DNA of 64,000 bases. Origin: Coptis chinensis (lineage: Eukaryota; Streptophyta; Magnoliopsida; Ranunculales; Ranunculaceae). Both the position numbers and the translations under genes were made by a program. Location: assembly GCA_015680905.1 (NCBI GenBank), contig JADFTS010000110.1, positions 88,371 through 152,370 of the forward strand, written 5' to 3'. Below the pieces are notes generated by a model that had not been told where the DNA came from, did not search any database, and was given only the letters and a program-made list of their open reading frames with translations. Shown here piece after piece: positions 24,705-58,495 of this stretch. How positions within the stretch are numbered: the stretch's first letter is position 1; each line of letters opens with the position of its first letter.

Positions 24705-24709
24705 AGGAG

Positions 24710-29515: not shown

Positions 29516-29519
29516 CTGG

Positions 29520-30115: not shown

Positions 30116-30119
30116 CAAC

Positions 30120-35250: not shown

Positions 35251-35266
35251 ATGATGGCAACCACCC

Positions 35267-35595: not shown

Positions 35596-35888
35596 GACCT
35601 TCATCTTAACATTTCCTCAGTAACTTAACAAGATAATATCTTCTTCTCCTTGGAGAAGCCCACAAAGTCTCCTTCTTCTTCTTCTCCTTCTGTTCTATCC
35701 GGCCTCTCAGCAATGATAACAGGAATAAGTAGCATTGACGTATAGTAAACAAGCAATTTAGCTAACACATTTAACAAGAAAAGGAACCTCGCACCATCTA
35801 AAAGAAGCTTGCTTTTTCATCCTCCTAAACTCCTTTGGAAAGCTTTTCCATAGCTTAGCTATTACCCAGCACATAGCTAAGTTACCCC

Positions 35889-38000
35889 TCACCAATAGTC
35901 GTTGCATGAGCATAAACCATCCTTGAAATGATGGAATCTATTGGCATCCCTCAATATGATCTCTCGGTCTGTTATCTTTGCAATCAATTTAATTGCCGAA
36001 TGACAATCCCCACATACACGGAGGTTCTTCATTACTCGAATAGGCATTCCTTTCGGAACCTTCAACAGCCCAAATGCTACAGCCAACTTCTCGCTGTGGT
36101 GACCTAAGTTATGTACCTTCTGCTCCTCATCGACATCATGCAACACCTAAGCTACCATCAGGGGAATAGCCAGCATCTCTTAACATGCCACCCAATTTTT
36201 CCAACATTGCCATAATCATTGTCTGCTCAGGGTGGCTCTCACTATCTCCTCCTGTAAACATATGGACTTTCTTCTCAACATCAATCCAGCTATAACCAGG
36301 AAACTTTCTCACCTTCCTTATCTTCATACATGTCCTCAGCTCTTCAACATCTTCCCATCTCTTTTTCGAAGCATAAATATTAGATAGTAAGATATAATGC
36401 CCAGCATTTTGGGGCTCAAGCTGAACAAGTTTCCTAGCTGCTACTTCAGCCACCTCCATGTTCATGTGCATTCTGCATGCCCCTAACAATGCGCCCCAGA
36501 TAACATCATCTGCTTGAATGGGCATATTCTCAATCATGTTCAACGCTTTGTGGACGAGGCCCGTTCGGCCAAGCAGATCAACCACGCAAGCATAATGTTC
36601 AGCAGTTGGCTCCACTGAATACTTCAATCTCATACTCTCAAAAAATTTCATTCCATCCTCAACTCTCCCTGTATAGCTACAGGCTGAAAGAATGCCTATG
36701 AAGGTAACATCGTCGGGTAACATTCCCGCAGAACACATTTCTTGAAAAACTTGCAAGGCTTCATCCCCTAAACCATGTTGCGCATATCCTGTGATCATTG
36801 AATTCCACATCACAACATCCTTCGGAGAAAATCTTTCGAACAATCTTTTAGCCTTAACAAGATCACCACACTTAATATACATTGTGATCAAAGCTGAGGC
36901 AATAAACACCTCCAAAGCAAGCTCAGATTTGGCTACCACTGCATGAATTTGCCTACCTTGATCAAGAGTTGCCAAGCTGGAGCAAGCATTAAGAATACTA
37001 ATGAAAGAAGGAAAATTTGGTCGAACTCCTGCTCTTTGCATTAGAGTAAATAGGTTGAGTGTTTCCAGTTCAAAACCATTTCGCTCATACCCCTTTATCA
37101 TTGCACTCCACGTTCCATCATCCTTTTCTTTCATGTGATCAAAAAGTTTTATCGCTTCATCTAACTTCCCATTCTGGCCAAACCCAAGAATCATTGCATT
37201 ACAAGCAACAACCGACCTCTCAGGCATCCTCTTGAATAGCTCAAAGGCTTCATCAAGTCTTCCACTCTGTGTATAACCTGTCAGCATTGCTGTCCAAGAC
37301 ACTTCATTCCTCTCCGGCATCGCCTCAAACATCTTTCTAGCAACATCCACTTGTAAATTCTGCGTATAACCCGTTATCATCGTTGTCCAAGACACCACAT
37401 TTCTTTTTCGCATGGTTTCAAAAGCTCCCTCGCTTCACTCATACGCCCTTCTTGACAATACCCAGCAATCATATTAGTCCAAGTAACAACATCCTTCTCC
37501 GGCATACTATCAAAAAGTCGTCTAGCCTCATCGACCCTTCTCGCTCGAATAAGACCACCCAACATAACAGTCCACGAAACAATATTCCTCTCGGGCATTT
37601 GCCAAAAAAGTGACTCAGCTTCTTCAATTACACCCTCTTGAACATACCCTCTAACCATTGAAGTCCAAGAAACCACATTCTTCTCAGGCATACTATCAAA
37701 CACTCTCCTCGCTTCTTTAACCATTTTATTCTTCACATACCCAGAAACCAAACCATTCCAAGAAGCTAAGTTTCTCTCAGGCATTATATCAAATAAATTC
37801 TTAGCTTCTCGATGTCGACGACATTGGAAATACCCAGCAATAATTGCATTCCATGATATAATGCTTCTTTCAGGCATTTCATCAAATATCTTCTGTGCAC
37901 GGTCAATTTTCCCAAGTCGCCCATAGTGAGAAATACGATTATTTGCTGAAATGATAGCTTCTGTACAATGTTTTAGACATTGGGTCGACGGGAAGTTCAT
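35889..38000 (-). pseudogene. PLS-DYW pentatricopeptide protein with two frameshifts
   Basis: The locus encodes nearly the whole of a DYW-class PPR protein in three abutting frames: 38000-37377, 37413-36136 and 36146-35889. It starts at an ATG with a short N-terminus, then about a dozen tandem P/L/S repeats (many ending in MPERNVVSW-like motifs). The E/E+ region (HPEQTMIMAMLEKLGGMLRD) and a DYW domain follow, with HSEKLAVAF (zinc-binding His and catalytic Glu), RVCGDCH, and the terminal CNDYW. It resembles the Arabidopsis mitochondrial protein encoded by At1g56690, recalled from memory. Frameshift 1 is one base missing in a T-run near 37419-37423; frameshift 2 is one base extra near 36146. 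Everything else is intact, so either the gene died recently or the assembly has two indel errors. Role if intact: C-to-U editing of specific organelle transcripts. Confidence 0.85.
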
Positions 38001-38262
38001 TAATAATAAATAAATTAGAACCAGGACTTAATTTTGGCGGGAAATAGGACCTGTAATTACATAATTTGGTGAAGGGCCGAGCTAGTTGGACTTGGATTTG
38101 GGCTCGGGTCATTCTTAGTTGAGCCCAAACAAATTTTCTCTGGGTTTGTGTTGAGCCCGAATAGATTTTCAACCGTTTTTAAGCCCATACCCCATAGGCC
38201 CATACTCATACTAGTATTCAACTTCTTTTTTGTTTTGATTATACCAACACCAAGATAATAAA

Positions 38263-38400
38263 TCAAAGACTATTAATACTGAGTAGTGGGAAATGCTCGG
38301 AAATGCTCCCAGTGACCCACGTCAGCCCCTTTTTTCTCTCTGAGATTGACACATCAGATTTTTCATAAAAAAAGAAATTCTACGCCCTTTTTTGCGGATT
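38263..38400 (+). repeat. Helitron-family 5' end, copy 1
   Basis: Aligns with the reverse complement of 57355-57492, including AATGCTCCCAGTGA, CACGTCAGCCCC and TTTTTTCTCT. Two AAATGCTC units occur in this copy. Confidence 0.75.
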
Positions 38401-38651
38401 TCAATTGTTCGTAACCCAAAATAGATAAAAACATCTCTCCACGTTATTTTTTCAATTCTACATAACACTCCCAACTCTCCAAAAAAAAAATTCATCTCTT
38501 CAAACCCTCTCTCTTATTTTTCTCTTCTTCCAAAATTAAACTAAGAATGATAGAGTGATGTCAAAATTAAACGTCAGCTTCATTATCATCAACTCCCTAT
38601 TGATTAGTTCAAGCAATTTTTGAGGACAAAACTCAGTTGTACATGGATTTC

Positions 38652-38780
38652 TTGGTTCGTCCAATTCTAATCCATTTGATTCCGACTCGGACTCTGATGC
38701 TAAGAAAACCTTTACTCCTGCAAGACGTACTTCTTCAGAACCTATAATGCCGACTGGAGAGTTGGCGGTTAAGTGGTAAA
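38652..38780 (+). pseudogene. SNAP33-like (SNAP25 family) N-terminal fragment
   Basis: The plus strand reads SNSNPFDSDSDSDAKKTFTP then ARRTSSEPIMPTGELAVKW and stops. An NPFDSDSD box followed by ARRTSSEP is typical of the disordered N-terminus of plant SNAP33-type SNARE proteins. The SNARE helices are absent. Assignment is from a short motif. Confidence 0.55.
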
Positions 38781-39204
38781 AAACTAAGCATGGTACATCT
38801 TCCCTGTGGATGTGAATAGTACAGAAAATATAATCTTTCCTCTATAAAGAAAACCCCTTAGGTAACCGTTCTGGATTTTTGTTTGTCCTAATTTATCCTC
38901 ATTGATATCTTCTATTTACGACCTCCTATATTGCATCTAAGATAAAATCTGATATTTATTTAATAAGCTACAAATGTCATTAAAATATAATTATCTCAAG
39001 TCAACAATTTCAAAACCATAATTCTGAAGATGCCCAGACACAAAACTTTCAGGAAATGGACTGTTGCTGTAACTTATTGCTATTCCTTTAAAACATTGTT
39101 CTGTACATTCATTGTTTTTCTTTGTTCGTGGCAGAGAAAAATCAGATGACAGGATTGGCAATAGCTGTTGCAAGCATGAAGTCTGGTGAATGTGTTTTGC
39201 TGCA

Positions 39205-39720
39205 TGTGGGTTGGTGCTGCTATGAAGTTGTTTGAGGAGTTGAAGAATCGGAAGGATTCCAGACCTTATGTGATTACTTATAATTATATTATAAATGGAG
39301 GCACTTGAGTTGCAGAAAGATATGTTAGTTTCAGATGTAAAGCCAAATGTTGTTACATATAATGCACTGATTGAGGGGTTTTGCAAGAAGGGGATGTTGA
39401 AAGAAGCTCACGAGCTGTTTCATAGTATGGCAGGACAAGGTATTACTCCAACAATTGGTACGTATAATACCTTGATTGATGCATACTGCAAGGATAGAAA
39501 AATGGAGGAAGCGGTTCTGTTGCATAGTGCAATGTCATTAGCAAGAGATGTTTGCAGTGATGATGTTTCGACTTATAATTGTTTGATTTCCGGCTTTTGT
39601 AAGGAAGGAAACAGGGAGGGTGCAAGAATAGGAATGCTTGAAGGACTATACAAACTTCTCATGCGCCGTACTCCCGTTCACTTTCGTCCTTGTTGGCTGC
39701 TTTCCTATTATACTTGACTT
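39205..39720 (+). pseudogene. P-type PPR protein fragment
   Basis: Successive repeats are readable: KLFEELKNRKDSRPYVITYN, then after a one-base shift VKPNVVTYNALIEGFCKKGM, GITPTIGTYNTLIDAYCKDR and DVSTYNCLISGFCKEGNREG. The canonical 35-residue spacing is kept for three repeats. The frame then runs into unrelated sequence that includes a repeat duplicated 0.5 kb downstream. It is a captured or decayed piece without start or end. The frameshift near 39297 and the foreign tail exclude function. Confidence 0.8.
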
Positions 39721-39820
39721 GAATCCATCCTGCAATAGTACAATGATATATCAAGATTGCCTACTGAAGCTCGATTCATTTATGGCTCGCAAGAATGTAT
39801 TACAAGACGACCGGAGCTTG
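39690..39820 (+). repeat. 130-bp direct repeat, copy 1 (copy 2 at 40222-40352)
   Basis: GGCTGCTTTCCTATTATACT...GAATGTATTACAAGA(C/T)GACCGGAGC occurs twice, about 530 bp apart, in the same orientation with few differences. It suggests local duplication inside Helitron 1. Confidence 0.85.
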
Positions 39821-40221
39821 AACTTATTTTTCATCCCTTTTGAAAAAAACGACTCCAGCTTGAACATAGTTTTTTTTTTTTTAGATCATAGAACATAGTT
39901 ACTCTATAGTACGAATCCTAGAGTTCTTTTTAGCCAATCAATTAATTGATGTATCCATTCTATTTGCATGTAGCTGTATTGTTATAGTTTTTTGCAGAAA
40001 ATGAGATGAAATCCAACAGATGTCCTTGCATGGAATGTATAGTATTTGGCAGCGTGTCGACTGTCCAGGTAAGGTTCTCACCAAATGCTCAATTCTATAT
40101 TAAGTACAAATATGGCTGAGAAAGAAAATGAGGACTTCCTTATTGTTACATGAAAAGATTAAAGTATAGTATCATTTGCTCATTTGACTTCCTTATTTTT
40201 TAAGGAAGTGGGATATTTTTG

Positions 40222-40352
40222 TGGGGGCTGCTTTCCTATTATACTTGACTTGAATCCATCCTGCAATACTACAATGATATATCAACAGTCCCTACTGAAG
40301 TTCGATTATTTTATGGCTCGCAAGAATGTATTACAAGATGACCGGAGCCTTA
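40222..40352 (+). repeat. 130-bp direct repeat, copy 2
   Basis: See 39690-39820. The copy starts at GGCTGCTTTCC and ends at GACCGGAGCC. Confidence 0.85.
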
Positions 40353-40359
40353 AGAGAGA

Positions 40360-42960
40360 GTGATCAACATTTTTGGGGGAGAATACATTTGTGTTTATCG
40401 GAGAAAGCATGCTCTATTGCTGCTGGAATTGATTGAGGACAGCTGATTTGTGTAATGGCGAAAACATGCTAGATGACATAGCCTGATTAGAATACCGGGG
40501 AGATGAGGACATCTCTGCACTGAAGAGGTCTTACAAATTTGATGGTGCTAGAGATTTTGTACGAATGGGGCGGTTGGCAGATGTAGGAATTAGCCGTGGT
40601 TAAGAGAAACATGATAATTCATTGAGGAGCGGCTGATGTTGATGTTGTTGTTGTTGTTGTGCTTCAAATTCCGCCAACAAGCTGAAATCATCAGCTTGAA
40701 TATCTCTTGCGTTAAGGGAAGATCTGAGACGACTATACTGGAGATTGCTTCCAAGAAGATGCAAGGTAGGAACATTTGATTTGAGTGTTAGAGATTCTAT
40801 TTTTTACGTGCTGGAATTCCTAACGTTTGCTCAATCTCTTGCACCAATATCGGATGCAGTGACTTATTGCCACTTTTCTCCTTCTTCAGTCGCTCTATTG
40901 CAAGGTATGCTTTTCTTGCAATAGTTTTTCTTCAATCGCTCAACTGTTTTTTGTTTTTTTTTTTCAACGTCAATATAAGTAATACTTCTATGGTTAATTA
41001 GGCGTTCTCTTAATTTTTATTTCAGTGAGTATAACAAACGGGTTTGTGGTGTTTCCGCGATGTTCTCAAAATTTGGTTAATGCGGGCTCAATAATTAGCT
41101 TTAAATATGTACACAATGTAAATCTTTGTCTTTAGGTGATTATCTTTAGCTTTAAATCTACGCCCTTTTTGGTTTCAGTTGAATTCTACGAGTTTGTTAT
41201 ACACCGGCTCGACTTTAATCATCCTCAATAGCATCTACACGACAACATATATCGCATAGTCTTTCTCATCCAAAGAATCCAGCAGCCTTAAGGTATCATC
41301 CTTGATTTCACGTAGATGAGGCGTGCTATTTCTTTTGATAACTCTACTATGGTACCATCACCATTTGTTCTTCTCTAAACGCTCTCACATTTACATTGAT
41401 TTCCGTGTTTTTTTTTTGTCTCTGATGCTTTTTTTCTCTTACTTTATTTATACATAGATTTATATATATTATATTCCCTACACTCATTAACTTATTTACT
41501 TGAATATATATATCCTCAATTCTGATGCAAACCTATTGGTTCTTAGAGAGAGAGAGAGTGAGTTTCCTTCGTTGGCTTTATTAGAGTTTTTCTGTTTGAC
41601 CAAACTCATGACTTGGATTACATGATAACTTTCCACTTTTTTTCTCTTGGTCCATATAAGTACGCCTGTTTGAGAGCCTACTATATATATTTATTTGATT
41701 GTGTGGTTTTAATATCCTTATTTCCCTATACTTCATATTTTTACTGATTTATCTATTTATCCCAGATTATTTGGTTTATGGCTTATCATTATTAATTTCC
41801 TATTCTTTTATCCTTTTCCTCTATTTATTCACGATTTTTTGGTTTCAAACTCTCTCATATATGGTAGCTACTCACATTTTCCAAGAAATGGAGAAGAAAT
41901 GTGTCTGATGCAAAGCTTGAGAGGAAGCTTGCAGTGAGCGAGAGGAACCAGTTGTCTTGCTCACTGAACGTGTATTGTACTTGGCAATCATCATGTTTCA
42001 TTGAAAGTGAAGCAAGAATTCAAGGTTGATAAATTGCTTCCTAACAAATTATTATTGTAGAAATAGTTGTTGTTGCAGCACTATAAAACGTATCGTCAAA
42101 CCTTGAATCACTTTGCAGGTTTTCGATAAACAATGGTACCAGCTCAAAGTATCTACTTTGGCAACAATCAAAGATCGAGAGGCTCTGGAGAAATTTTCAC
42201 AGGAGGAAAGACCATCAGTTGGTAAGCTTCATAGGCTTTGTGTTGGCTCACCTTTTTCAGTTTAAGTATATGATATGCATGACTTAACATATGTATATAA
42301 ATGAGTGCTTTGTGTTGGTGATGCTGAGATTTTTCGAATGTTTATTTTTTTATGATTTTGCAATCTGCGATTAATTTGCAATCAACTCCATTAATTATAT
42401 ATGTACTATGTAGTCTTAACTTTTTTTTACTTTTGACCATAAGGAAGAATCAAGCAAAATTACATCAGTATGTCATTGCTTGCAAATTATTTACACATCT
42501 ATTTTGAAAAACAATTATTGTTTAAAAAAATACCAAGGGCAACAAAACGCAATTGTGTAAAAAAATCAGGTGCTACATTGTATATAGGAATCCGAGTCAG
42601 AAAGCTTCGTGCAACTAACCTTTTAGTGTTGTTGTACGTAGTAGTTGTCCTCTTTTTAAAGTCTTCCCATTAGTAGTTGTTAATGAGTTTGTGGTTTGTC
42701 ATGTTAATTTCTTTCATTGCAGTAAGTGCTCTAAAATTGATATCAAAATTTTTATGATTGGAAGTGGATGCCGTTTCCAGTAGTGTATTTTTTTTTACTG
42801 TCCTTTTCTCATTTTTTAGTAACACCGCTTTTGATAAATCCAATTTCTTGCCAAATACTTCCGCTTTCTTCCCCAATTTAAAGAAGGATAAAAGGGTTTC
42901 GAACACTAGAACTCATCTATATTTTTTCTTGGTGCTGCTCATCATTTTTATTTTTTTGCT
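40360..42960. other. Interior of Helitron 1, mostly unassignable
   Basis: AT-rich. An exon-like segment at 42119-42221 is bounded by AG and GTAAGC and is open in two frames, but its protein is not recognised. No other coding signal. Confidence 0.4.
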
Positions 42961-42971
42961 TTTGCAGCAAA

Positions 42972-43063
42972 AAATTGCATTACACTGATCATTGGAAGAA
43001 AGATGAAGGCTCAATACAAATTGCATTACACTGATCATTGGAAGAAAGATGAAGGCTCAATAC
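42972..43063 (+). repeat. 46-bp tandem duplication
   Basis: AAATTGCATTACACTGATCA...GATGAAGGCTCAATAC is present twice back to back (42972-43017, 43018-43063) with perfect or near-perfect identity, so it is recent. Confidence 0.9.
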
Positions 43064-43589
43064 GTGTCTACATACTCCTTTCGCAATATGATTGCTTTCA
43101 CTTTCTAACTCTAAGATCAAATGGACCATTGTAAGTTCTTCTAGCTAATACCATAAACAATCCAGTTCATGATTAATCTTATAAATAGGCAGACTGAAGC
43201 CTACATTTGATTTGCATTTGCACACACTTTTTAAATTATTATGCCAAAGCCTAGATTGGCTATCTGGCTCTGTAGATGTGACTTTGGTATGTACTTTGGA
43301 ATATTTATAATTTAAACAGAACATTATGGTGCTTATTAAGGTTTTTGCTAATGTGGTTAATGTGTTTTCTGCCTCTAACCTGTGTCTTTTAATTTTCTAT
43401 TAAATCTTATTTAGCAATGTATTGAGATGCTATCACTTACGAAGAAGCCGTATTCTACTGAAGAGTACTTAACCACCACAAAAGTGCAAGTACGAGCTCA
43501 GGTCAACATGAGACATTCAAGATCAATTTGAAAGTTAATTACATGTTAAAAGTGCGTAAATTCTATGACTTAACATGAAACCCATTTGT

Positions 43590-43960
43590 CCAAGCTTGGT
43601 TATGGTGGTGGTGGAGGTGGTGTCTATGGTAGTGGAACCAATTTTGATGGAGGTGCTACTGCTGGTGGTTATGGTGGAAGCGGTGGGGAGTATGGTGCCG
43701 CTGCTTGAGGTAGCAGTGATAATTTTTTTAGTGGTGGTGCAAGTGGCAGCGGCTATGGTATGGTCAAAATGATCTTTTAGATAATGAGCCCTCAAGAAGA
43801 TCTTTGGAGGTGGCGTTGATAATTTTTTAGTGGTGGTGCAATAAGTGGCGTGGCTATGGTACGGTCAGAATGATCATTTAGATAATGAGCATGAAGACTT
43901 TGCTGACAAGAGGGGATCAGAAATCTCTATGTATAATGTGCAAAAAATGACTTGAATGCT
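43590..43960 (+). pseudogene. Glycine-rich (RNA-binding-type) protein C-terminal fragment
   Basis: The plus strand encodes LGYGGGGGGVYGSGTNFDGG then ATAGGYGGSGGEYGAAA and a stop. Two diverged copies of a GYG-QND-LDNE segment follow (about 43740-43795 and 43845-43895), the second continuing EDFADKRGS. A Gly/Tyr-rich tail ending DNExxDFAxKRG is typical of plant mitochondrial glycine-rich RNA-binding proteins. The RRM is absent. The opposite-strand and valine-rich readings here are artefacts of GGT repeats. Confidence 0.55.
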
Positions 43961-44930
43961 CATAAGATTTGAATTTTTGTACCAAGTATAGTGAAAATAA
44001 GGATATTAGTTGGTCGCGATCCCCCTTCTTTCTTAGTTAATGGCCACTCATTATGTTTTGATATTTGTGTCGGCTTTAATGTGAGAATGTTTTGGCTAAT
44101 TGGTCATATGTTGTCATGCGTACCAGATTTGATATCTAAATATGTCAAAGCGTAGTTACTGTTGGTTAGTGTTGGCCAGCCTTCAAAGTTGCTAATAAAC
44201 CGAAGTTCATGTGTTTGATATGCTACTGGGAACTATATTTATCAAATTTGAGTAAAAAAAAAGTTACACAACTATATGAATTAGGAGTATGTTCACTCTT
44301 TCCAAATGAATTAACCAACGTTTCAATCAAATGTGTGATGTAATCTCAAAATCCAATTCCTTAATCAACATTTGTAACTTATATTATACAAAAAATATTC
44401 ACTAGCCTTTAAATTCCATACTCTAGGAAGTTAAGTGATGAACTAGGCATTTACTAAAATTTAAAGCATTCATCTCTTCCGGTCAGGGTTTGGTTATTAC
44501 AAGAGGGCTAGCAGGTTGGGCACTATTGGGGAAACTTCTTGGAAGACTATTTTCTTTGGAGGGAGGATGAAGAAGAGCCAGAGGGCGGTGTGTTTTCCAA
44601 CCACACATATAATTTTTTATAGAGTTGCATAAGAAGTGTATGATTAAATTACATACCCTTTGTATCAAGACATTATGTCTCTAAATTAAATAAGCTAATT
44701 CTTTTGAAATGATATGTAGTCTAAATTAGCTTGCTACAATATGGATTATCTCGTGTTTTGGGAGATAGCTTCAGATAAAAGTAAAGACTTCTTTGTAAGG
44801 CGATAGATGATAAAGCGATAATAGTAGGATTATTGAATAGCTTTAGATGAACTAAGTGATCGACAAACATTCAAATGCCATATGAAAGCTTATATTAAAC
44901 CTCCAAATCTGATGTTGAAGTATGTAGTGT

Positions 44931-44961
44931 CGGTCTCACACATTCTATAAGTGTGAGACCG
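44931..44961. other. Perfect 11-bp inverted repeat
   Basis: CGGTCTCACAC (44931-44941) and GTGTGAGACCG (44951-44961) with a 9-base spacer. It is followed by TATAAATATA at about 45007-45016 and a (CTT)n tract at about 45078-45096. It could be part of a decayed transposon or promoter-like sequence. Confidence 0.6.
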
Positions 44962-45400
44962 CACCTTTATTTAGCTTGTTGCTATTTAGGTTATTCCATC
45001 TCTAGTATAAATATATGCATTGTAGGTTAGGGTAAATATACTCTAAACCCTACCTTCTTCTTTGTGCCTCCATCCTTTTTCTTCTTCTTCTTCTTCTACA
45101 CACTCAATCCCTTTTAACCTAACAAGCTAACCACCATATGTATCTCCTAGCATAAATAACATCTGAGTTACATTGAAAGTTTGTATATGGTGAGTTAGAT
45201 GCGAGTGATGAACTGAAAAAGAATTCAACTAGAGTATTGTATGTTATAATCACTCACTTGAATTAGAGTCATTCTAGGGCGGTTGGATTTTACAAAATAA
45301 AACTCCACAAATACAAAATATTTACTTTTGGACGGTGTTTTTTCTATGCTTTATGATACTTTCTCTTTGCAATTGATAAGGTGAACTATCAATGTAGCAG

Positions 45401-45429
45401 GTCCGGCTGCAGGCGGACTAATTGGCTAG
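45401..45429 (+). other. Helitron 1 3' terminal hairpin and CTAG
   Basis: GTCCG-loop-CGGAC, seven-base spacer, CTAG, then T. It shares ATTGGCTAG with the Helitron 2 end. Confidence 0.75.
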
Positions 45430-45519
45430 TACGTATTAAAAATGAGAAATATGAAAGGTTGCGATATCTTGAGCGTTAGTTTTTCCAAAAGACAAAAAAT
45501 GTTCAATATGTTCAACCCA

Positions 45520-45547
45520 CTAGCCAATATGCCGGCCTGTGGCCGGC
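45520..45547 (-). other. Helitron 2 3' terminal hairpin and CTAG
   Basis: On the minus strand GCCGGCC-ACA-GGCCGGC (45547-45531), then ATATTGG, CTAG (45523-45520) and T in the flank. The stem is strong and entirely GC. Confidence 0.8.
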
Positions 45548-45549
45548 TT

Positions 45550-47200
45550 ACTACATTAATAGTTGATTTGCTCCAGACTATTATAAGTGTATATTGTGCA
45601 ATTATTCAATGTTTTAAGAGAAAAAGTGCAAGCCTATTATTCAAGTGTATTGGGCTTTAAAAACATCAACCTGTCAACAAAATATTCACTCACATAAATA
45701 AACTAAGGATACAATTTTTGCAAACTTTCTGAAGCAACAACAACTCAACCAATAATTATTGATCGCAATATCAAGTACACATATTTTGGCACTCTAAAAT
45801 AGTTGCCACTACTAACACTTACTAATATTATTTAATTTTGGTACTACAGATGTTATGGTACCTATAAACAACGACCAAGAGGATCAATAGTAGACATAAG
45901 CAAAGTTAAAGTGTCCCTCCAATCAACAACTTTTGACTATTAAAGAGTAAAGTTCCTACTAAACCTCAGTCTCTTTGTTAGATCATGACTATAAATCCGT
46001 TTTTCAACTCATTGTCTTGAAGAGCAGCATTTTGCAACAATGATACCAACAAAGAATCACAAAGGCACCAATGTGAGAAAAAAAAACACAATTGCACATT
46101 ATTGTTTATACTATGAAGTAATCTATGAATGAGAGAACAAAGCTTCATGAATGTATTCACTTGAAATCAACATTGACTATATTACCTCCTGATAAGAGAT
46201 GCAAAGTTTTTGTACTAAAAGCGTATATAATTCCATAGTTCCATAAACAAATAAATGAGGATTATGGGATTGTATCATAGGATTGAGGACTCTAGTAAAA
46301 ATTGCATTTAGGCCCGATTGGAGAACTAATTAGACGCCTCTGTCTCAATAATCTCCTTTAAAAATTGTAAAATTGCAATAAGCTAGTTTACTTAGGGATG
46401 AGTAAATCAATTTTCGTATCGTTTTCTAATAAAAGAAAGCCATACACTCATAAACAAAGGTGAAGTAGAACAACCCAATTTTTTTTTTTATATTGCGGGT
46501 AGTTTATTTGGATCCATTTAACTATGCACCATCTAAATAACATTGATTAGATAAAACTATGCAAGCCAAATGTTATAAAAAACCAAAATAGTAAGTGACA
46601 TGTCATTCTTAACATTACGTGACATATAGCATTTGAATAAGCTTGTATTCTCGAACTCCATTGTTTATGACATGCGGGCATCCACCCCTGTTTAACTCCA
46701 ATTCTCGGGCATAAATCTTCATTTTTATCAGATCTCATCTTATTCAAATGCTTCAGTGCACTTTCAGTAAGTGAAATAGCAGGTGCAAGTGTGAGGAAAA
46801 GTAAGCATACCTTTAAGCCCTACAATCAATGCCAAAGAAAGAAACTTTCATTTCCGTGTCTTCTTCAGTTCAACAATGGGCGTTTGAGTTTTTAAAAAGC
46901 GTAAGGAGCCGTGATGTCGTCGTCTTTTCAGATTGGATATTCGTTTTGTTTCCTTTGAACATGATAGTCGCTATTGAGAGATGGTGGTTTGAGAGAGGGA
47001 ATTTTTTGTTGTGGTGGTGTTAGAGAGAGAAGGGGGTGGGAATGGAAGAAAGAATGGGTTTTGAGTAAGGGAAACCATTGATTCCCCAACTGGAATTTCG
47101 TTTACCAATTGATGCTGCTAAAGTATCACCTGTGTGTTTTTTGAAACGGGTTATTGATAGATAAACACAAATCATAAGCTAATGGAAATTAAATTTATAA
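45550..47200. other. 3' part of Helitron 2, no gene recognised
   Basis: Short frames only. A possible continuation of the Helitron coding region (GDTLAASIGKRNSSWG after an AG acceptor) is visible on the minus strand near 47135-47080 and soon ends. Confidence 0.4.
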
Positions 47201-47215
47201 ATTAAATAATATTAC

Positions 47216-50200
47216 TTATATACCTGCGACCATTGCATCCATCACATTGTTGTATATATCAACCCTAATTTCTTCTTGGTGTGTCCGATACCAACGCATT
47301 TTTTGATCTTCTAGACATGTATAACCATCAACAATGACTGTTTGACGTAAACGTCCACCTATCCAGAGTAATCGACTTTCCAGTGTCCTTTTCTGTAGTC
47401 TAAAAGCCCAATATTGTCTCATAGTAATCGTATCTCTTTTATGATCATCTATACTAGAAACTCTGTCATTTTCCTCACTATTAGGAAGTTTTCTATAAGG
47501 AATCCCAAGTCTATAGCCATCTTCACCACGGGGAAACATTAAAGGATATTGCAAAGCCATGAATTTAGGATGTAATTCATTATTCTCACTACAATAGAAA
47601 GGCTCATTTGCGATTGCCATACCCGTCACTAAATGTGTGAAAAAGCATCATGAATTGATCAATTACAACGCCAAACTAGGGCATAAAAAGCGTTGCAAAA
47701 AAGTGCATCACAAAAGCTCAATTGTGACGCGCCAAGTGGCGTTGCAAAAACTTAAAAGCTTTTGCAACACCCCATTAGTGTTGGTACTACATTTTTCGTG
47801 GCTACTTCTATTTTCAAAAATAAATAAATCTCCAAACTATTTCAAACTATTTGCCACGCATGGCGGCGCAACAACTTGGATTTTCCAACACTGTGACCAT
47901 CACAAAAGGTGTGCTTATAGCTATGCCGATTAGTGTTGCAAAAGATCGAGCTATTAGCTACAACTTTAGCGTTGCAAAAGATTGAGCTTTAGCTGCCCTT
48001 TTTTTGTTGTTGCAAAAGCTAAAATTTTAGTAGCTACCTACTGTGCGCTAGTTCTTGAAATTTTAGTAGATAAATCGTCTTCCCTTTCTCGCCACAACTT
48101 TTGCATAGCAAATAGTGTAGTGATTCTTTTAAGTTTTGGACTCACGCCAAATACAATTTATGTTGACAACAATAACAGTCATATATATAAACAATTCACA
48201 AGAATCATATCAAAACAAATTTTATTAATTAAAAATCATCCATTAACCATTACAAAAGTAATTCAAGCATATCCACAAAGGTCTTTTCCAATACATCAGC
48301 TCGATAATCTTCACAACGATCCAGTTAATTTAAACAAATTTCTCAAAACTTGATTTTAGCAAAATATACAAAGCTTCAAAGTCGCCGATTTGAACAAAGA
48401 ACCCAAGTTCTCTTCATAAATCTACCAATATCCAATCAACAAACTCTGGTACAACGAATTAAAAAAAGACATAAGTAAACTTATATATCCAAGAAAACAA
48501 AGCTAAAATGCATTTAAGTAAGCAATGCATGTCAAAATCAGGTAAGCACCATTACATTTGCAAAGATCAGGAAAACTTGGAACAAAGACAAAAAAAGTCA
48601 AGATAAGATTTAATGTTGAGAAAACTTATAAATAAATTAAGAACACGAAACATATTGCAATGGGGAGAATCTCCGGTGATATAGGAATTAGCAAGAAGCT
48701 CCTCCTGTTGCATAATACAACCACATACACAATGAGATCAAAATTACAATGCCTACAATTAAAAATATATGATCGAGAAATCATTGGGGATATCTTTTGC
48801 TTTTGATAGGAGTAATAACTTAGCGGAATGCACACAAACAACTATAATCTAGCCAAGCATTAGATTTAAGATTAGTGGCACATTATGGCTGCTAATTCAG
48901 ACAATTAACAAAAAATTAGTCACTCAGTACAATACATAATACAAAGTATGAAGTAAATTTTCAAAGCTTACCTAGCTAGAAAAAAGGAACTAGATTTCCA
49001 AACCAAGATATGTCCCCCAGTAGTTATCACTTGTGCTCTTCTCCAACTTGTTTACAACAAAAACATTTTGACTTCCAAATTAAAGAAATAACCTTATCCA
49101 TGACTACAAATGCTAAGCACATAAATTTGCCATGGTCCAAGTATTTCACTCATTTATCCAAAATCTACAAAAACCAAGTACATAAAGCATAATTAACAAA
49201 TTTCTTAGTTAAACCTAGGTCATCTCATTTGGAAAATTCATATATGACATACCAACTTTCGTACTCATCAAAAAAATTTCAACTACTTTTTTACAGGATT
49301 AATATTTTTTTTTCCTTTACTAATAGGTTTTTCAGGTCTCGGTTCGGGGATTTCATAAATAGTTCCTTCACTCCTAGTCCGAACAATGTATCATGATATT
49401 CAATAAACCAATTAACTCCAAATATCCTTCCTCCGAGGCATGGCGGAAAAGTGATTAAGGGGGTCAACCTAGTTTTCAAAGACACCTATAAACCCCCAAT
49501 TTGGAGCATAATGTAGACTTGTACTCCAATATATTCTCATAGTTTGCAATTTAAACCTTAATCATTTCCTTGAAAAACTTTTAGTCTCAGACCAATTTAA
49601 AAAAAAAACAAATTAACAAATATAAATATCATAAAAGACATAAGAGAAACATGAAAATTATTACAAGTTGATAAGACGATATGTTTAGAGCTTTGCATTC
49701 TTCAATAACCGTCCTCATCTAGAAGCTCTTCCAAAGTGAATTCTTCCTTATCCAAAATTGCCTCCACTTATAAAATGGATATGATAACAAAGAATAAAAA
49801 AATAAAGCTTCAACTTGTTACATAACAGTCAATACATCAAGAAACATTAATTTATGTCTACAAGATTGTAACATAAACACCAGCTAACTAGAAATAGGTT
49901 TCTATTTCATTCAAAGTAAAAAAGAAATAGTAATTACATGGAAAGCCTATTTTGCGAAAAATCAAGAAAAACGATAACAATAGTTGGTTACAACTATTAA
50001 TTACAATTTGTGTATGAAGAATTCAATTCGAATAATAAATATATTCAATTAATTAGAATAAACCAAACAAACGAGTAAAAGAATAGAAGATTACAGGTGA
50101 GGCAGTGAGGGAGGACGTGTGCCAAAACATCTTGGAAAGGTAAAATGAGCAACATCACCTTCAAATCTCTCTCTCTCTGAGTGAATAAACCTTCAAATTT

Positions 50201-52373
50201 CTTTTGACCGCGCCGGAGGAGAGGAGGAAGAAGATTTTTTTTTGGTATGAATATGAGTTGGTGGCAGTAAAGAAAATAAGAGGGTGGGAGGGGTTTTCCA
50301 ATTTTTAGGGTTGGAATCCAATAATTAGAAAGGCTCGCGAGAAAATTTGGTTGAATTATAACATCCCTCCCCAATAAAAAGACCATCAGCGACGCCATTG
50401 TCGTAGCAACGAAGGTAAAGAGATAAAAACTTTATTTATTATTTTACCAAAATAATTAATCACGCCTATTGGTCACGCAAAAGGCATGACAATAAATAAG
50501 TTTAACTAAGGCTGATGCAGACAGAACACAAAACTATTAGGGACGCCTACATGTGTCACAATAGATATCTTTTACCAACAAATTTTGAGCGCTGCAAAAG
50601 AGTACGCTGCAACTGAACCCTTCTGTTGTAGTGTCTCTCTAAACATCCTCTAGTTTCAACAATTATGTCCCTAAAATCATTAACATTAAATCCATCTCCT
50701 TCAATTAAAGCTGCAACTTCAATTCATTGCGGTTATGGGTTGTATTAATCTTCCATCACTCTGCGAGAATTAATAAGTCTTAGGCGGACATCAATCATTT
50801 CATCTTCTTTAAATCTGCCTCTAGCCATCCTAAAAGACTGTACAACTTTACTGTGTTGATCAAACATTTTGATCAATCCATCAACAATTACAGGATTGAC
50901 AACTTCATTATCTTCTTCATTGAATATTTGCATCCTATTCTTCAGTTCATTTTGAGTATCGTATACATATAACTGGACAAATTGAGGAGGCTTATTTTCG
51001 AATGGAAGAAGAGACCCAATTTTATGATGATTTTGCCCACTTATTCTGAAAATGAAAGGACCTCCTCCATTATTGATAGTCTTATCTATCTTGCCTCTGT
51101 AGAAGTAAATTGAAACATGGAGTTGTATGTCTATATATATATCTTCTAAATTTAGTAGATCTTGTTCCTCCTTTCAAGTCCAAGAGTTTATTAAGAAACT
51201 CAGGGGCATCCTCAAATAGTGGAAGTTGAACTTTTCCTTCTCCACAACATATAGAGAACGTTAGAACAGATGATATTTCTATGTTGTTTCTTTCTTCTTC
51301 CCAAAGAATTGCTCCATAGTACATACACTCTTCAGTTGGTGGTCTAAAGTCATGAACGCCTAAAATATAAAAATTATTAGTGAACTTGGCAAACATTATG
51401 AATAAAATATTAGAACTGAAGAAAAAAAACACGTACCATCAATGTTAGTATATTTGCTTAGAGCACGATGAATTTTTCTTTGCTTTTGCAAACGTTTATT
51501 ACTTTCACTGATATTTGTGATTTGAGATATTGAAGTCATTATACGATGCATAGCATCTGTAAGATTCAAAGTACCTGTTTGGTCTGCGTAATAAAAATTA
51601 TCAAATTTCGTAAACTTTAATTTTCAAACGACTATATATTACAATTTTACCTTTATTTGAACGCAAGTTGTGTTCCTTGGATGCCAACAAACGACTACGT
51701 TTCTTTAAATCCAACAAACGACTTCGATTAAGGCGAGCTATTTTAGCTGTTTGTTCCTTTGTAGATTCAACATTGACTGTTTGAGAATTATACCAAAAAA
51801 GGGTAAAGTTAAGCCATTTCTTGTAGAAAGGAGATTATAATTGTTTTTTCATTATAAAATAAGTTAGTTAATTATTCAAAGACAATTGGTTAAATGATTG
51901 ATCTGTTGCTCATTTAATTCCTGTGTGTGTATCAATTCCTCCATAACAAAATTTGTCTCTGTATTTTCTTCCTCTGTAATTAATGCATAAAGGAAAGTAT
52001 AAGTATCAGTTTCCTACATCTACAGAATATCTTAAAATCAAATGAGAATAAAAAACATTATATTTTGATTTGGAAAGTTACATACCAGTGCGACTTTGAT
52101 ATTCCATTAGCTGTGGATGTCTTCTTCTATGCTCTTTTAGCATTTCTTCTCTATGGCTGTTGTTTGTACTTGCAGACATCATAATTCTTCTATGACGCTT
52201 AAGGTTAGACAATATATTCCCATAAGGTTAGACCCTTCAATATTTTATTTTGTTAGAATATTTATCAAGTGTGTATAATAAAAATTAAAACTTCGTACCA
52301 TTATTGTTTTTCAGTGCAAGAATACATCGACTATTGAACCGAGCAATTCTGGAGGTAGATATTTTTTCGTCAT
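47216..52373 (-). pseudogene. Helitron helicase-like N-terminal (Rep-region) protein, decayed and interrupted
   Basis: Minus-strand exons in order: MDDEKISTSRIARFNSRCIL from 52373, ending at a GT donor; basic repeat-like segments (STKEQTAKIARLNRSRLLDL, 51650-51780); TGTLNLTDAMHRIMTSISQI (51450-51590). Next comes RPPTEECMYYGAILWEEERN with CCGEGKVQLPLFEDAPEFLN (51180-51360), a conserved Helitron block. NGGGPFIFRISGQNHHKIGS and VDGLIKMFDQHSKVVQSFRM (50760-51070) follow. After the CACTA insertion it continues ELHPKFMALQYPLMFPRGED (47510-47575) and RQYWAFRLQKRTLESRLLWI, ending at a GT donor (47216). These are the Helitron_like_N region of plant Rep-helicases. The HUH Rep active site and the helicase were not found. 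Stops and the 3-kb insertion make it nonfunctional. Confidence 0.85.
47627..50633. mobile_element. CACTA-type non-autonomous element (3.0 kb) inside Helitron 2
   Basis: The left end starts CACTAAATG and the right end finishes TGTTGTAGTG (reverse complement CACTACAACAG). It splits the Helitron coding sequence between RDIIVETRGCLER and the YPLMFPRGEDGYR block. Subterminal copies of GCGTTGCAAAA/GCGACGCC-like motifs occur at both ends, as in plant CACTA families. The 3-bp flanks (CGT left, TCT right) do not match, and the termini agree only in CACTA, so the assignment is not certain. No TPase-like ORF was recognised; the AT-rich interior has only short frames. Confidence 0.6.
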
Positions 52374-52379
52374 CCATAA

Positions 52380-53405
52380 GGTAAACCTGAACAACTCTTC
52401 CTCTCTTTCGCTAAAGCTTTAACTCCTCTTATAGTTGTTGCTTATCTCTGAAGGACAGGAATCACCCACCATCTCTGTTGGTTCAACTCGAGGCTAATAT
52501 CAATCTTATTCATCGCACTGATAATGATTTAGAAATTGTCTTCTTAGACAAGACTTACTTGACTATATCAAAGAACCTTTGGGGATTTCTTAGCAACTGT
52601 GTAATCTCAAACTATAAAACAGTTTTTGTTTATCAGAAGATATGTGACACTAAAGAGGATCTTGGCATTTACAAAAAACAGTTTGCTTACAACTTTTGTT
52701 GAGAGATTTTGTTTGGTATGAACTGATGAGGAGAAGATTTATCAACACTCAGATATCTGTTAGTTATAGTAGTAATAGAGTTCTAGGACTTCTAAGACTG
52801 TCAGTGTTGTGTTAGCTTTAGACTTTTAATTGTATAAGATTTGTAATTGTGTAAGAACTGAGTTAGCTTTAGACTTTTAATTGTATAAGACTTCTTAAGT
52901 TTATCCTTGGACATTCGAGTTGAATTTCTATGCAAGTAAGATAACGTCATTTAATTTGTATTTTTTGGATAGTAAAAAAGGTTATCTAAATTTGATTGTT
53001 TCCAATTTAATCTTAGCATTTGTACTAATTTATTGGGTTATCTACTTATCTCAATAAAGAGTGTGAAACAAAATCAAATTCCTAGTTTCGTGGAAGATAA
53101 AACAGAATATTAACATAAATAGATCCTATATAATAGAAAACTTTTTATTTGTCATTAATTTTTTTATTCCATGTGTCATCATATTACATGCTAGCAAAAT
53201 ATGGGGTCTCTAAAAATTGGAGCCTTGTGCAGTTGCACCTCTCGCACTCCCTCAACACCTGCGCAGCCTCATCGTGCCAATTGATCTATCAAAGGCCGAA
53301 TCAAAACATATATGTTAATGTCATTGTTAACCGAAGTATTAGCATTATTAGCATTATGGTTATTTAGGTTGTAAATAAAGGAATTGGAAGAGGTGCGCGG
53401 TTAGG
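52380..53405. other. Noncoding stretch with a small direct repeat
   Basis: GTTAGCTTTAGACTTTTAAT with TTGTATAAGA occurs at about 52812 and 52862. A plus-strand frame (52478-52702) is of doubtful meaning. No gene recognised. Confidence 0.4.
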
Positions 53406-53409
53406 ACAT

Positions 53410-53715
53410 TCAATGCTCTTTCCCAGTCAGCTGCTGTAGAACATAGGATATTAGGATGGGGTATTTCTTTCCTTCCGCATCTTCTTTGATAATATTGCAA
53501 AGGTGTAAATTAATCTTTGAAAGATGGTCAGCAGCTTTGTTGGCTTCTTTCCATGAATGGGTTTTTCGTTGATGATTTGCATGATGTTCTTGACAATGTA
53601 TGGTGAAATTAATAGCAAGACCCTTACATGAATTGCGAAAAACAACAACTGATGGTTGCTGGCCTATCTGCTGCATAGCGGGGACAACTGGTGCACTCTG
53701 GCTTCCAGATGACAA
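53410..53715 (-). pseudogene. Possible RNase H-like (LINE-derived) fragment
   Basis: A minus-strand frame with HSWKEANKAADHLSKINLHL, which resembles the HxxREANxxADxLAK block at the end of plant LINE RNase H domains, preceded by NFTIHCQEHHANHQ. The acidic residues earlier in the domain are not clear, so this is tentative. Confidence 0.35.
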
Positions 53716-54014
53716 CTAAGGCTGGCTAGCTGAAGGAATAGCAAGTGTATGAGTTTGTGATATTGATTGGTAGTGAGTTGAAGCATTGATGTAAATTGGA
53801 GCTCACCATAAGAAGATGGTGCAAACTACATGAGTCTAATGACAATAAATGAAAGATTAGAATTCATCCAACACTCTTTAAGTAAACAACATCTTATACA
53901 TACACATTAAGACAAACTCATACAGTAAATTATTCCAGCATTTGGTATAGACGGACAGATTTCAAAAACATGAGGTCCATGGTATGTAACAAATTTCATG
54001 AGACTGCTTTGGTC

Positions 54015-54372
54015 AATCTTTTGAGTTGCTCGTCATTAACATTTTGTGATCGACTACTAATGTAGTTAGATTCTAATACATCGACCACCTCTCCAGATGA
54101 ATCCAACATCACAAAAGTGGTTGCAAGCTTTCCACGTCCCCAACAACAAGCCATGATTCTTGGTGTAGCTTCATCATCGGGGTTAGGTCATTACTCCCCT
54201 TCCACTTATATGGTGCTACAGAAACCTTTGACCAAAACTGCTTCCCATATTCCATCAGCAGAATTTTTTTGGATCTAGCAGTCAACACAGAAGGCACTTC
54301 TTTTTCCATCGAAGGAATAAGAAAATTTGAGAATGCATCCTTCAATGACAGTTCATTCTACATTATCGGCCT
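54015..54372 (-). pseudogene. SPT6-like transcription elongation factor fragment
   Basis: The minus strand reads AFSNFLIPSMEKEVPSVLTA, LLMEYGKQFWSKVSVAPYKW and, after a one-base shift near 54190, DDEATPRIMACCWGRGKLAT, TFVMLDSSGEVVDVL and SQNVNDEQLKRL. This is the central region of plant SPT6, a histone chaperone that travels with RNA polymerase II. The piece joins directly to ILP1-like sequence at its 5' side. The frameshift and missing domains exclude function. Confidence 0.78.
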
Positions 54373-54379
54373 CCCTGCA

Positions 54380-55300
54380 TTTTGCAACCGTGGTCCATTA
54401 ACCGCACTCCCACCACCCTCAATGTTCCACTTATACTTGTTCCCCTTGATTCAAATGAAGTTCGCGATCACCAACCTCACTTCCCGGCTGCCCAATTCCC
54501 AAAGAATCCTAAGATTCAGATCAACAATCGAGGGAAGTCCTAGATTCTTACTGTAGCGCCACATAAGCTACAATCCAACATAGGTGACCTAGATTCAGAT
54601 CTTGACTCAGGAAAAACTAATTTTTTCTTTCTAGTGTCTCTTTTAAGAGAAGCAGAGATAAGGGCATGTTTGATAGGTCGATAGGTCCAGGATGATGTGA
54701 AGGCCAGAGTAAGTTTGTATTCGGACCAAAGGAGCATTCGTCTCTAGCTGATTGAGCAGAGTGTTCTTCATAGTCTGGAACGTTAAGAACCCATCTTGGC
54801 TCCCATCCACACAGGCTAATCAGCTTTTGGATTGTCAATGAAAAACATTAACCAATGTAAAACGAAAAGGATGAAACTTCTACTTCGAGTAGCCAAATAA
54901 TATATGTTTATCAAGTCACCAGCATGAATAAATATTTCTACATATCTTACATGAGAATAAATGCAGAAAGTGTTATCTTGACTGATGAACTCTATTCCTT
55001 GTATGTAACCTGTTTCTCTAGCTAAAATTTCTGACTGGGCTAGAAGACGATCAATTTGTGAACTCCTAGAAAGTCGCATCTGACCAATTGCAGAGGCAGC
55101 AATAACAGAAAGGGAAACAAATTGCAACAATCCGTCGCATCGATCTTTAAAGCCCCAATTAGTGCTGAAGGTGGGGTTGGAGGAAACTGAACTAAGCTTT
55201 CCTCACAGCTATTTCCCCTCCAAGGACATGAGGTTCCATGCACAACATTAAGCTACTTGGCAAAAGCTTTACCGGCATTATTAGCTTGATGCAAAGAAGA
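54380..55300 (-). pseudogene. ILP1/NIPA-like C3HC zinc-finger protein fragment
   Basis: The minus strand carries NNAGKAFAK (stop) LNVVHGTSCPWRGNSCEESL then VQFPPTPPSALIG, and after a one-base deletion DRCDGLLQFVSLSVIAASAI with QMRLSRSSQIDRLLAQ (about 55290-55020). An intervening intron-like segment follows, then QKLISLCGWEPRWVLNVPDY, EEHSAQSARDECSFGPN (54830-54710), LLDCSLCGATVRI (about 54580-54545) and GGGSAVNGPRLQNAGRPI (about 54420-54370). These are blocks of the plant IAP-like protein 1 / NIPA family (C3HC zinc finger and following region). Internal intron remnants show genomic capture. It has one in-frame stop and at least one shift. Confidence 0.75.
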
Positions 55301-55869
55301 AGAGGGTTCTCGGTTATTTGTTCTCGGACTTGGACGAAGTAGTAGAAGTCTTGAACATCATTAATATCATCTACCCTCACATAACTGAAAATACACAAAA
55401 AAAACAATCCCAAAAATCCGAAACAACCCCATCAAGAGAATTCCTCCACCGACACAAAAACATAAGAACGGTCACCATCTTCCTTAGCCTCTTCATCCGG
55501 TCACATCCGACCTTCCACTCAAATCCCCATTATCATCACTGCCGATAAATAGAATATGTAGATTCTAGTTCTAATTGTGTATTATCTCGGGAGAGGAGTC
55601 TATTTCCAATGAGGTCTGCTCCTTTGCGGGCGATCTAAAGGTTCTTCCACGTAGATATCCTCATCGGTTCTCCATTTCTTGATACCACTACAGGTTGTTT
55701 CTAATCTATTGCTTTTAACAATTTCAATAGGCATAGACTGTGAGTCCTCATTATTTCCCATCACAACTCCCCGAATCTAATGTGTCTTGGTCTCAGGACT
55801 TTATCTCCCCATCAACATTACATTTCAATTTGAATCGGGCTTATCTAGTCATTGTAGTTCAGATTGAAT

Positions 55870-56602
55870 GTGATTCCATCTCCATCTCACTCTCTACTTT
55901 CTCCTCCTCACTATCTACTTTCTCCTCGTCAATGTTTTCATCATCATCAATATTATGAAGTTCGTTCCTCGTGTTCAAAACACCATTTTCACCTCCACGG
56001 ACTCCATATCAACAACAACATCTTCGCGGTGAAACTCCAAGGTCACGTTTCTACGATATGTCACTCTCAACCTTCTTAGAATCATCAAACTCCACAACTT
56101 CCACATCTGTCTCCTCACCCAAAGAACCCAAAATACTCACTTCTAATAAAGGATTCTTTGTAATACTATCGATGAATGAGGCTCGATTCCACTAACAAAT
56201 TCATACGACCCGCCACTTACATCACTCTTTTCCTCGGAATCCTCACCAACCTTCTCCCGATCATCACATGCCTTTGAAACATAAAGCATTATTTTCCTCA
56301 AAATCAACCTCAGTACTCTTTCTCCAATGCCAAGTATTCACCTCAGTTTCAAAACCACTCTTCTCCTCACTTTTCAACTTCCCCACCTCCAAAACTTAGG
56401 ACCTCAACTCAATGTCGAGACCATTCTTCTCCTCAAACTCAAACTCAGCCTCACTACTCTTACTCTCCAAAACTTCAACACATACCTCACTTTCTAAACC
56501 ACTCTTCACATCAATTTTCACTTCACTTGTATCCTTACTACTCTTATTCTCCATAACTTCACAACTCAACTCACTTTCTAACAAACCACTCTTCTCTTCC
56601 AT
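55870..56602 (-). pseudogene. Acidic Glu/Ser/Lys repeat protein, unrecognised, broken
   Basis: The frame starting at an ATG at 56602 reads MEEKSGLLESELSCEVMENK, VKSGLESEVCVEVLESKSSE and EEKNGLDIELRS, i.e. three or four degenerate copies of a (K)SGLxxE...EVxExKSS unit. After a stop near 56396 similar acidic sequence returns in other frames (EEKSGFETEVNTWHW; NIDDDENIDEEKVDSEEEKV to about 55870). It is probably an intrinsically disordered protein fragment. Upstream (about 56740-56660) a short frame begins MASTGTLLRNRNKTRSMFFE. Confidence 0.4.
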
Positions 56603-57354
56603 TTCAACTCCATAATATTAGATTCTAAATGCAAGTGAATAGTTTCTTAGCTCAAACAAAAAGTAAAAGTTACCAAAGGTTCAAAAAACATGCTTCTGGT
56701 CTTATTTCTGTTTCTGAGAAGCGTTCCGGTAGAAGCCATATTAACCCCTGAACAATAATTCCAAATTTACCGAGCATTAAGACTGTATGCAATGATCAAT
56801 CGCTTGTAAATTGGCCAAATAAACATTCATAGATAAATAAAACTTACTTTGGGCATGAAGTAGAATCCCATTTCACATAAAAGCATTTACATTGAAAAAG
56901 AACTACTAAAAGCTTTTAAATTGTATATAATGAAAAATCATGCCAACTATGCTAGCTTATAAAGATGGAACCTGAGAACCAAAGTCTTTTCTAACATCAA
57001 ATAAAAGTCCAAATATATACTAAATATAGTGAACACGAAACATTTTTTATTTCTTGCTTGATCATAAGGATTTGATTAAAGACGGGTAGCTGTCTCTTTG
57101 ATCTGAACAAAAAGAATAACAACCCAATTAACGATTATGAGAGATTACCTGAGAGTAGTGGAGCAACAATTGTTCGATCTATTCGGAGCACCAACGACAG
57201 CAAGTAAAACGAACATTTTGATGTATTGTTTATGAACCTAGTTTTTTTTTTCCTGGTAAAGGTCTATTTTTCGGGTAATGGTCGGGGTGGGGTTTTGAGT
57301 TTTGATGAAAGGTGTTTTGATTTTTTTTTTTATTTGACATTGTTACGCGAACAG

Positions 57355-57492
57355 TTAACAAAAGTGGGCGTGAATTTGATTTTTTTTTTCCCGAAAATAT
57401 TAGAAAAATTGACGTGTCAGTCTCAGAGAAAAAAGGGGGCTGACGTGTTTCACTGGGAGCATTCTCGACTGTTGAGTATTAATGGTCTTTGA
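57355..57492 (-). repeat. Helitron-family 5' end, copy 2
   Basis: The reverse complement aligns with 38263-38400 over about 130 bp (ATTAATACT, AATGCTCCCAGTGA, CACGTCAGCCCC, TTTTTTCTCT, GACACGTCA). It lacks one internal AAATGCTC unit present in copy 1. Confidence 0.75.
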
Positions 57493-57499
57493 TATCAAA

Positions 57500-58495
57500 G
57501 CCCTTCCACATGAAATGCTTAGATATGTTGTGAGATATATGAAATTTTTGTTCATGCATTAACTATTTTATTCTAAACCATTAAAGGCCTAGAGACACTC
57601 CAAAGACATCGAACTTGTTAGTTCTAGATGACTTTAACCTACTAGCACATATTTAATTATTGGTCCCTTTGATTCTCCTTAGGTTTAGCATTTCCCATTT
57701 TCCACCCAGATTGCAATCAAATTTATGTCCTCTTTATATAGAACTTTTCAACTAAAATTTGCATTATGGTTTTTATAAACTTGCAAGGGGAAATGAGAAA
57801 AATCTAGCATCCCGTAAATTCTTTTATCTACATTCACCATTTTTAAAATAGGGAAATTTAAAAGTGAAAAATTTAGGAACACTCAAAATCATACCGAAGT
57901 TTTTACACCCCATCAACTTTGCAAATTAGAATTCCACCCCAGTTCTTTCATTATTAGACTTCCACCCCTACTTTCACAACAAGTTACATTGATGCTTTTT
58001 CTTTGCATGTGCAAGTACACATCTACCCTCACCGTAAAATGACTAATAAGCCCTTTGACTCCTCCAATACCAAAACCCATTCAATTGCCCGCATTAAGGT
58101 CATCACAACCCATTTAATCCAACGAACCTAATTTTTTTGCCTAAATGACATCGACTACCCCTGGCCACCTAAAATACCCAAAATAACCTCACTCATGTTT
58201 TCTCAATCGCCATGTGTCATCATCCTAACTAACTTGATCGATTCGGCATGTGGCAAAAATAACCGTTTTGGTTCTAACCTTTAAGTGAAGCGTGACCATT
58301 GTTCACTTTCGAACTCCTCGCGAAAAAGGAAGAAGAAGTGGAAGAAAAAAAAGAGCCGGAAGAAAAACATAAAAATGGGAGGTGGTGGAGAATTAGTCTA
58401 AATCAAAAGCAATGTTGGAGAAGGTATTTCCACTTTGTACCTAAATCTTGTTACTTATTAGTTCTTTGTGATGAGTGGGTGAATTAGTAATTAAA
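57500..58495. other. Noncoding; possible outer end of a decayed MULE
   Basis: No gene. The block at about 57890-58290 is rich in short CACCCC- and CATGTG-type motifs and precedes MULE-related coding remnants, so it may include an old terminal repeat; its mate was not found. Confidence 0.35.

Follow-up and report, generated by a model that had tools for sequence, protein, structure and literature searches.

Among the described systems closest to the elements considered here are the canonical plant Helitrons, such as HelA and HelB of maize (named in PMC2267711), with a TC head directly after a host A, a hairpin 11 bases before a CTAG end that is followed by T, a clean A target site and a gene fragment lying along the direction of the element. 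The bat elements Helraiser and Helibat1 likewise have TC and CTAG termini, a hairpin stop signal and an AT target in AT-rich DNA, and Helraiser was rebuilt and experimentally tested by its authors (PMC4778049). A preference for AT-rich surroundings is described in the same text (PMC4778049), Helitrons are stated often to insert in AT-rich regions that hold other Helitrons (PMC4289320), and tandem insertions are reported from several hosts (PMC5148889). In a search of openly licensed literature, papers naming adjacent Helitrons came down to the maize report (PMC2267711), none was listed for RepHel elements in inverted orientation, and no priority is claimed here for tail-to-tail pairs.

Here we describe two elements of Coptis chinensis, Helitron A and Helitron B, which very probably are distinct members of a loosely defined Helitron family and reached the same copy of an older repeat by separate insertions, in opposite directions and about 90 bp apart. 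The features listed above for the canonical plant elements, and the termini, stop signal and target of the bat elements, are found in the Coptis family, the clean target site with the reservation given below for B. Unlike HelA and HelB, it has its own head, TCAAAGACYATTAATACT, and two tail subtypes, and B retains only remnants of the protein; unlike Helraiser it is known here from sequence alone.

Results

The whole stretch of 64,000 nucleotides that was analysed, referred to as the window, is C84:88371-152370, the last 64 kb of the 152,370-base contig JADFTS010000110.1, and the assembly searched comprises 935.6 Mb in 116 contigs. A tubulin cofactor C gene is also present in the window. Helitron A occupies positions 38263..45429 of the plus strand (7167 bp) and Helitron B positions 45520..57492 of the minus strand (11973 bp); both begin with TC after A and end with CTAG before T. 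The A head is TCAAAGACTATTAATACT at 38263 (+) and the B head is TCAAAGACCATTAATACT at 57492 (-), with a host A just before each. Aligned by BLAST over 102 bp, the A head (38263..38364, +) and the corresponding portion of the B head (57403..57492, -) are 77% identical (E 1.6e-16), and beyond the heads no shared sequence was found between the bodies at E 1e-3. An earlier sequence-only reading of this DNA had placed the same 5' sequence after A at both positions. Both matches are exact and they are the only two in the window, even when 3 mismatches are allowed, a level at which shuffled sequences gave 0.62 matches on average and at least two matches in 10 of 100 shuffles.

The two 3' ends converge. 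The ends at 45429 (+) and at 45520 (-) read ATTGGCTAG and are followed by T, with a hairpin ahead of them, as had been read from the letters; each hairpin stands 11 bases before the end, and both fold: that of A at 45401..45418 (+; fold z only -1.4) and that of B, with a 7-bp stem, at 45531..45547 (-; fold z -3.2). With 1 mismatch allowed, 4.28 matches to the tail 10-mer are expected by chance, so the 10-mer alone proves nothing; support for both tails comes from matches that are exact, that stand behind hairpins and that recur in tens of genomic copies. The tails of A and B belong to two subtypes. Between them lie the 90 bp of spacer (45430..45519), a piece of an older repeat with paralogs on C8, C6 and C38. 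No 9-bp duplication was seen at 38.26 and 57.49 kb, where it had been named as the sign that would speak against two elements.

The family was sought in the whole assembly. With the first 130 bp of A as query, 40 of 879 first-look head candidates were scored, and for the B head 40 of 1019. The tail searches gave 40 scored of 121 candidates for the A type and 40 of 73 for the B type, in the latter case as the 40 main alignments of 49, the other 9 being short secondary pieces from positions that were counted once already. Tail records with flanks number 78, made up of 40 of the A type (window and C6 included) and 38 of the B type (B itself on C84 and C6 left out). A T directly follows the tail in all of these except L098 (77/78), and CTAG is mutated in a few of them. 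An A precedes six of eight A-type heads, the window included; the other two are preceded by a T and by a G, the latter on C6 and belonging to the third element described below. One stem pair of the A-type hairpin is T-A in 31 and C-G in 7 of the 40 tails, a matched change, and the stem is mostly kept. B-type hairpins are broken more often: several stem pairs are lost in part of the 38 copies, and one pair is C-G in only 26.

Copies of the head and tail types of B are dispersed in the genome, and whole copies are known for A. When the 80 listed heads are compared with the 80 listed tails, same-strand pairs no more than 25 kb apart occur at 11 places. Four of these are A and B themselves, on C84 and on C6; the other seven, which include the C5 copy of A, span 6.0-23.4 kb, and the longest may be a chance pairing. 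Solo copies of A stand at C5:95856194-95862989 (6796 bp, 97.4% identity over 6751 aligned positions) and C1:83946300-83939311 (6990 bp, 97.4% over 6679). They have the same ends as A in unlike flanks, each preceded by A and followed by T, and neither is accompanied by a B tail; other copies with these ends at A/T sites, the check suggested for A and B, were thereby found for A. For B the searches brought up its head and tail types elsewhere but no second whole copy with the same body.

An empty site was sought with a joined query of 100 bp of left flank, the 90-bp spacer and 100 bp of right flank. Positions 75-285 of this query align continuously, at 89% and with small gaps, to C8:11874370-11874591, where neither A nor B is present, and the A junction there reads AATAAA followed directly by TTCGTATT, exactly. 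The predicted joining of left flank, spacer and right flank is realized in this paralog, the only one that reaches the A junction, with homology to only 26 bp of the left flank (38237..38262). Since the spacer and both flanks form one stretch on C8, the spacer was supplied by neither element. Judged from these alignments, the spacer and the right flank are parts of the older repeat into which A and B inserted; the rest of the repeat on the right is 57493..57895, and alignments to L099, L100 and L101 end at 57895. Four more paralogs cross the B junction, at C6:17.51 Mb, at C8:1.63 Mb and at two places on C38. At a sixth paralogous place, C8:4.41 Mb, the alignment is in two pieces and the B junction falls outside both. 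In all five spanning paralogs CAACC is directly followed by TAT, and the window minus B reads CAACC-CA-TAT, 2 bp more. The excess reflects either an extra TA in the local target beforehand, together with one A to G change, or a TA that was duplicated upon insertion of B; canonical Helitrons, unlike the latter case, are said to leave no target duplication. The claim that every Helitron rule holds at all four ends thus stands for A before TC, the hairpins and CTAG before T, and is qualified by a B site that is 2 bp longer than in five paralogs.

The A and B pair occurs twice in the assembly, on C84 and on C6. Window positions 29014-38264, the left flank of A, align with C6:98057381-98066630 at 99.3% identity, and 38299-63996 align with C6:98071020-98096760 at 96.7% with gaps counted. 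With gaps disregarded, 1-kb bins of the latter are mostly 97.7-100% identical, with four bins at 91.2-96.3%, and the right flank is mostly 96-99% identical, with 91% in the final kilobase. From these alignments we read the C84 contig as an alternate haplotype of C6, and the pair, present on both, would then be a single locus. Between the two aligned blocks, C6 carries a third element (C6:98066629-98070991, 4363 bp) that begins with TC, ends with CTAG and sits exactly between the host A (window 38262) and the first T of A (38263). In the window haplotype this site is empty, although the first ~20 bases of A differ between the alleles by small indels. The last 60 bases of the third element showed no strong hairpin by eye, and we call it Helitron-like. 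A joint move of the A and B pair to C6 was considered, given the different left flank there, and was ruled out: the C6 flanks are allelic, and the difference on the left is the third insertion.

The contents of the two elements differ. In A a PPR gene fragment lies at 39295..39717 (+; Pfam PF13041, E 2.2e-38). In B a Helitron_like_N remnant lies at 47216..47647 (-; Pfam PF14214, E 2.2e-6), at 28.4 bits just below the cut-off of 28.9, and it derives from the type of protein that Helitrons themselves encode rather than from a host gene picked up by the element. Pieces at 50559..51438 (-), without a Pfam match, look by eye like the region upstream of Helitron_like_N. Those at 53999-54357 look SPT6-like, again by eye; PDB searches with two of the pieces gave nothing usable and Pfam gave no confirmation. 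A single sub-threshold Pfam match of another B piece to SRCR_2 (E 0.062) was taken as chance. Captured host fragments in B are assigned by eye only, and of the statement that captured fragments follow the orientation of their half, the part concerning PPR on the plus strand of A survives, while the Pfam-matched piece of B, on the minus strand as stated, is not such a fragment. No Rep or helicase was found in 4 frames of A or in the 12 frames tested of 27 minus-strand frames of B (frames of at least 55 aa). From the Helitron_like_N remnant 1.7 kb are left to the B tail. The Rep-helicase part is larger than this, and B is therefore probably a decayed, non-autonomous derivative.

Discussion

The description of this locus as two related Helitrons tail to tail, separated by 90 bp, has proved exact to the base, with same-ended copies elsewhere and a paralogous empty site. 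What the assembly demonstrates are the ends, the dispersed copies, A without B, a paralogous site that lacks both elements, and the pair in both haplotypes. The solo copies of A, together with a C8 site that lacks both elements and has the spacer, make two insertions most likely, and not one 19-kb element. The mechanism is most likely ordinary. Each element would insert between A and T by rolling-circle transposition of the RepHel type, the hairpin and CTAG would terminate the transfer, and the transposase would be provided by other copies, B having remnants only. Counted against two insertions are the 2-bp excess at B, an empty site for A known from a single paralog and the lack of a whole second B, as are the improbability of two same-family tails so close under uniform insertion and the fact that the finding was chosen post hoc.

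That the two inverted heads instead bound one continuous 19-kb element moving in a TIR-like manner is extremely improbable. Its outer ends do form an inverted repeat, some 100 bp long and 77% identical, and the pair is found twice in the assembly; the second occurrence, however, is the allelic C6 site, C5 and C1 carry A without B, the spacer persists between the flanks where both elements are absent, and no 9-bp duplication is seen. We give as little credence to a single event producing both halves, whether through template switching or through partial duplication in inverted orientation, in rolling-circle replication. The template switch had been suggested for the pair, and a common head family, opposite directions and a distance of just 90 bp could recommend a single event. 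The occurrence of A alone, bodies and tail subtypes that are unlike, dispersed copies for each subtype separately and a spacer that is pre-existing flank DNA all speak against one event, and we infer two events rather than one.

A bias of insertion toward DNA beside an existing family member, by which the second element was attracted to the first, has to be weighed against the distribution of neighbouring ends. The flanks scanned around the 78 tail records total 68,954 bp, about 0.5 or 1.5 kb apiece, and an opposing tail was found at this locus alone, once per haplotype. Genome-wide, the exact pattern ATTGGCTAGT-N75..105-ACTAGCCAAT, which covers exact tails at this spacing only, was found on C6, on C84 and in one C5 stretch (77-107 bp between tails), and its reversed control gave zero matches. 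The C5 match, at 71068074, was set aside as a second pair, the stretch reading as a palindrome. Same-direction neighbours are commoner: a family head lies downstream in 5 of the 78 records, four times within 25 bp (L034, L025, L060, L097) and once at 680 bp (L021), and one further record, L083, contains a second tail pointing the same way. The total of family ends is known only roughly, and for 200-2000 ends inserted uniformly, 0.001 to 0.1 tail pairs this close are expected and about 0.0002-0.002 heads within 25 bp downstream, compared with the four observed. This excess favours attraction, as do the third element on C6 that directly abuts the head of A and published Helitrons landing beside Helitrons, in two reports (PMC4289320, PMC2267711). 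Such neighbours are, however, tail-to-head, re-insertion between A and TC or rolling-circle tandems could account for them, and tail-to-tail ends occur at this locus only among the 78 records. We hold attraction to be rather unlikely. A target preference had been proposed for the pair, and a special preference for tail-to-tail insertion is not supported. The combined proposition that the family prefers to insert beside its own ends and that at least one insertion, that of B, left a 2-bp TA duplication is quite improbable.

A pair of unlike neighbouring Helitrons has been described before and is attributed by its authors to consecutive insertions. A and B are likewise unlike neighbours, but their tails face each other across 90 bp, and the head-to-tail counterpart at this locus is the third element on C6. 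For adjacent head-to-tail Helitrons the maize report leaves open whether re-insertion between A and T took place with later loss of one, or insertion between G and T (PMC2267711). The third element and its empty allele match the canonical route between A and T, one of these two possibilities. The C6 allele offers a natural example of Helitron-like insertion at an A|T site made of the host A and the first T of an older Helitron.

A Helitron family is hereby documented in Coptis, its ends placed to the base and backed by copies of A that stand alone and by an empty site in a paralog, and the locus is a tidy record of element pile-up. Adjoining elements such as A and B can be mistaken for one large composite element.

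Insertion sites and neighbouring elements

The older repeat of about 0.5 kb under the Helitrons A (plus strand) and B (minus strand) has left remnants at 38237-38262, 45430-45519 and 57493-57895 of the window, position 57895 being where the three longest paralog alignments stop, and six other places of this repeat lie on contigs C6, C8 and C38. Five paralogous empty sites cross the B insertion site (45519/45520 and 57492/57493), and the filled site is 2 bp longer than every one of them.

Tail-to-head neighbours, in which a family tail is followed by a second family head in the same direction, were seen in five of the 78 tail records with flank (from the 40 scored of 121 A-type candidates and the 40 scored of 73 B-type candidates). 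The distance is 0 bp in L034 (C4:25.36 Mb), in L025 (C2:40.76 Mb), where the first bases of the head are eroded, and in L060 (C8:95.73 Mb), where the head is without its first 10 bp; it is 25 bp in L097 (C6:94.08 Mb) and 680 bp in L021 (C3:60.10 Mb).

The allelic site on C6 carries a haplotype-specific element of 4363 bp (C6:98066629-98070991; L040:5629-9991), with TC after A at its head and CTAG before T at its tail, inserted exactly at the head of A, opposite window 38262/38263. Repeats inside it resemble window 14685-15063. Beside A's head in the window is a PPR gene with an E motif (36136-38027, minus strand), split over two overlapping frames (37377-38027 and 36136-37434), possibly by a frameshift or an assembly error.

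Elsewhere in the window, two 650-bp direct repeats stand head to tail at 23402-24705 (97% identity), and an open frame of 691 aa (4758-6833, minus strand) resembles, on visual inspection, a reverse transcriptase of the LINE type. A palindrome-like stretch of 101 bp at C5:71068074-71068174, with ATTGGCTAGT at both ends, is perhaps a small inverted-repeat element.
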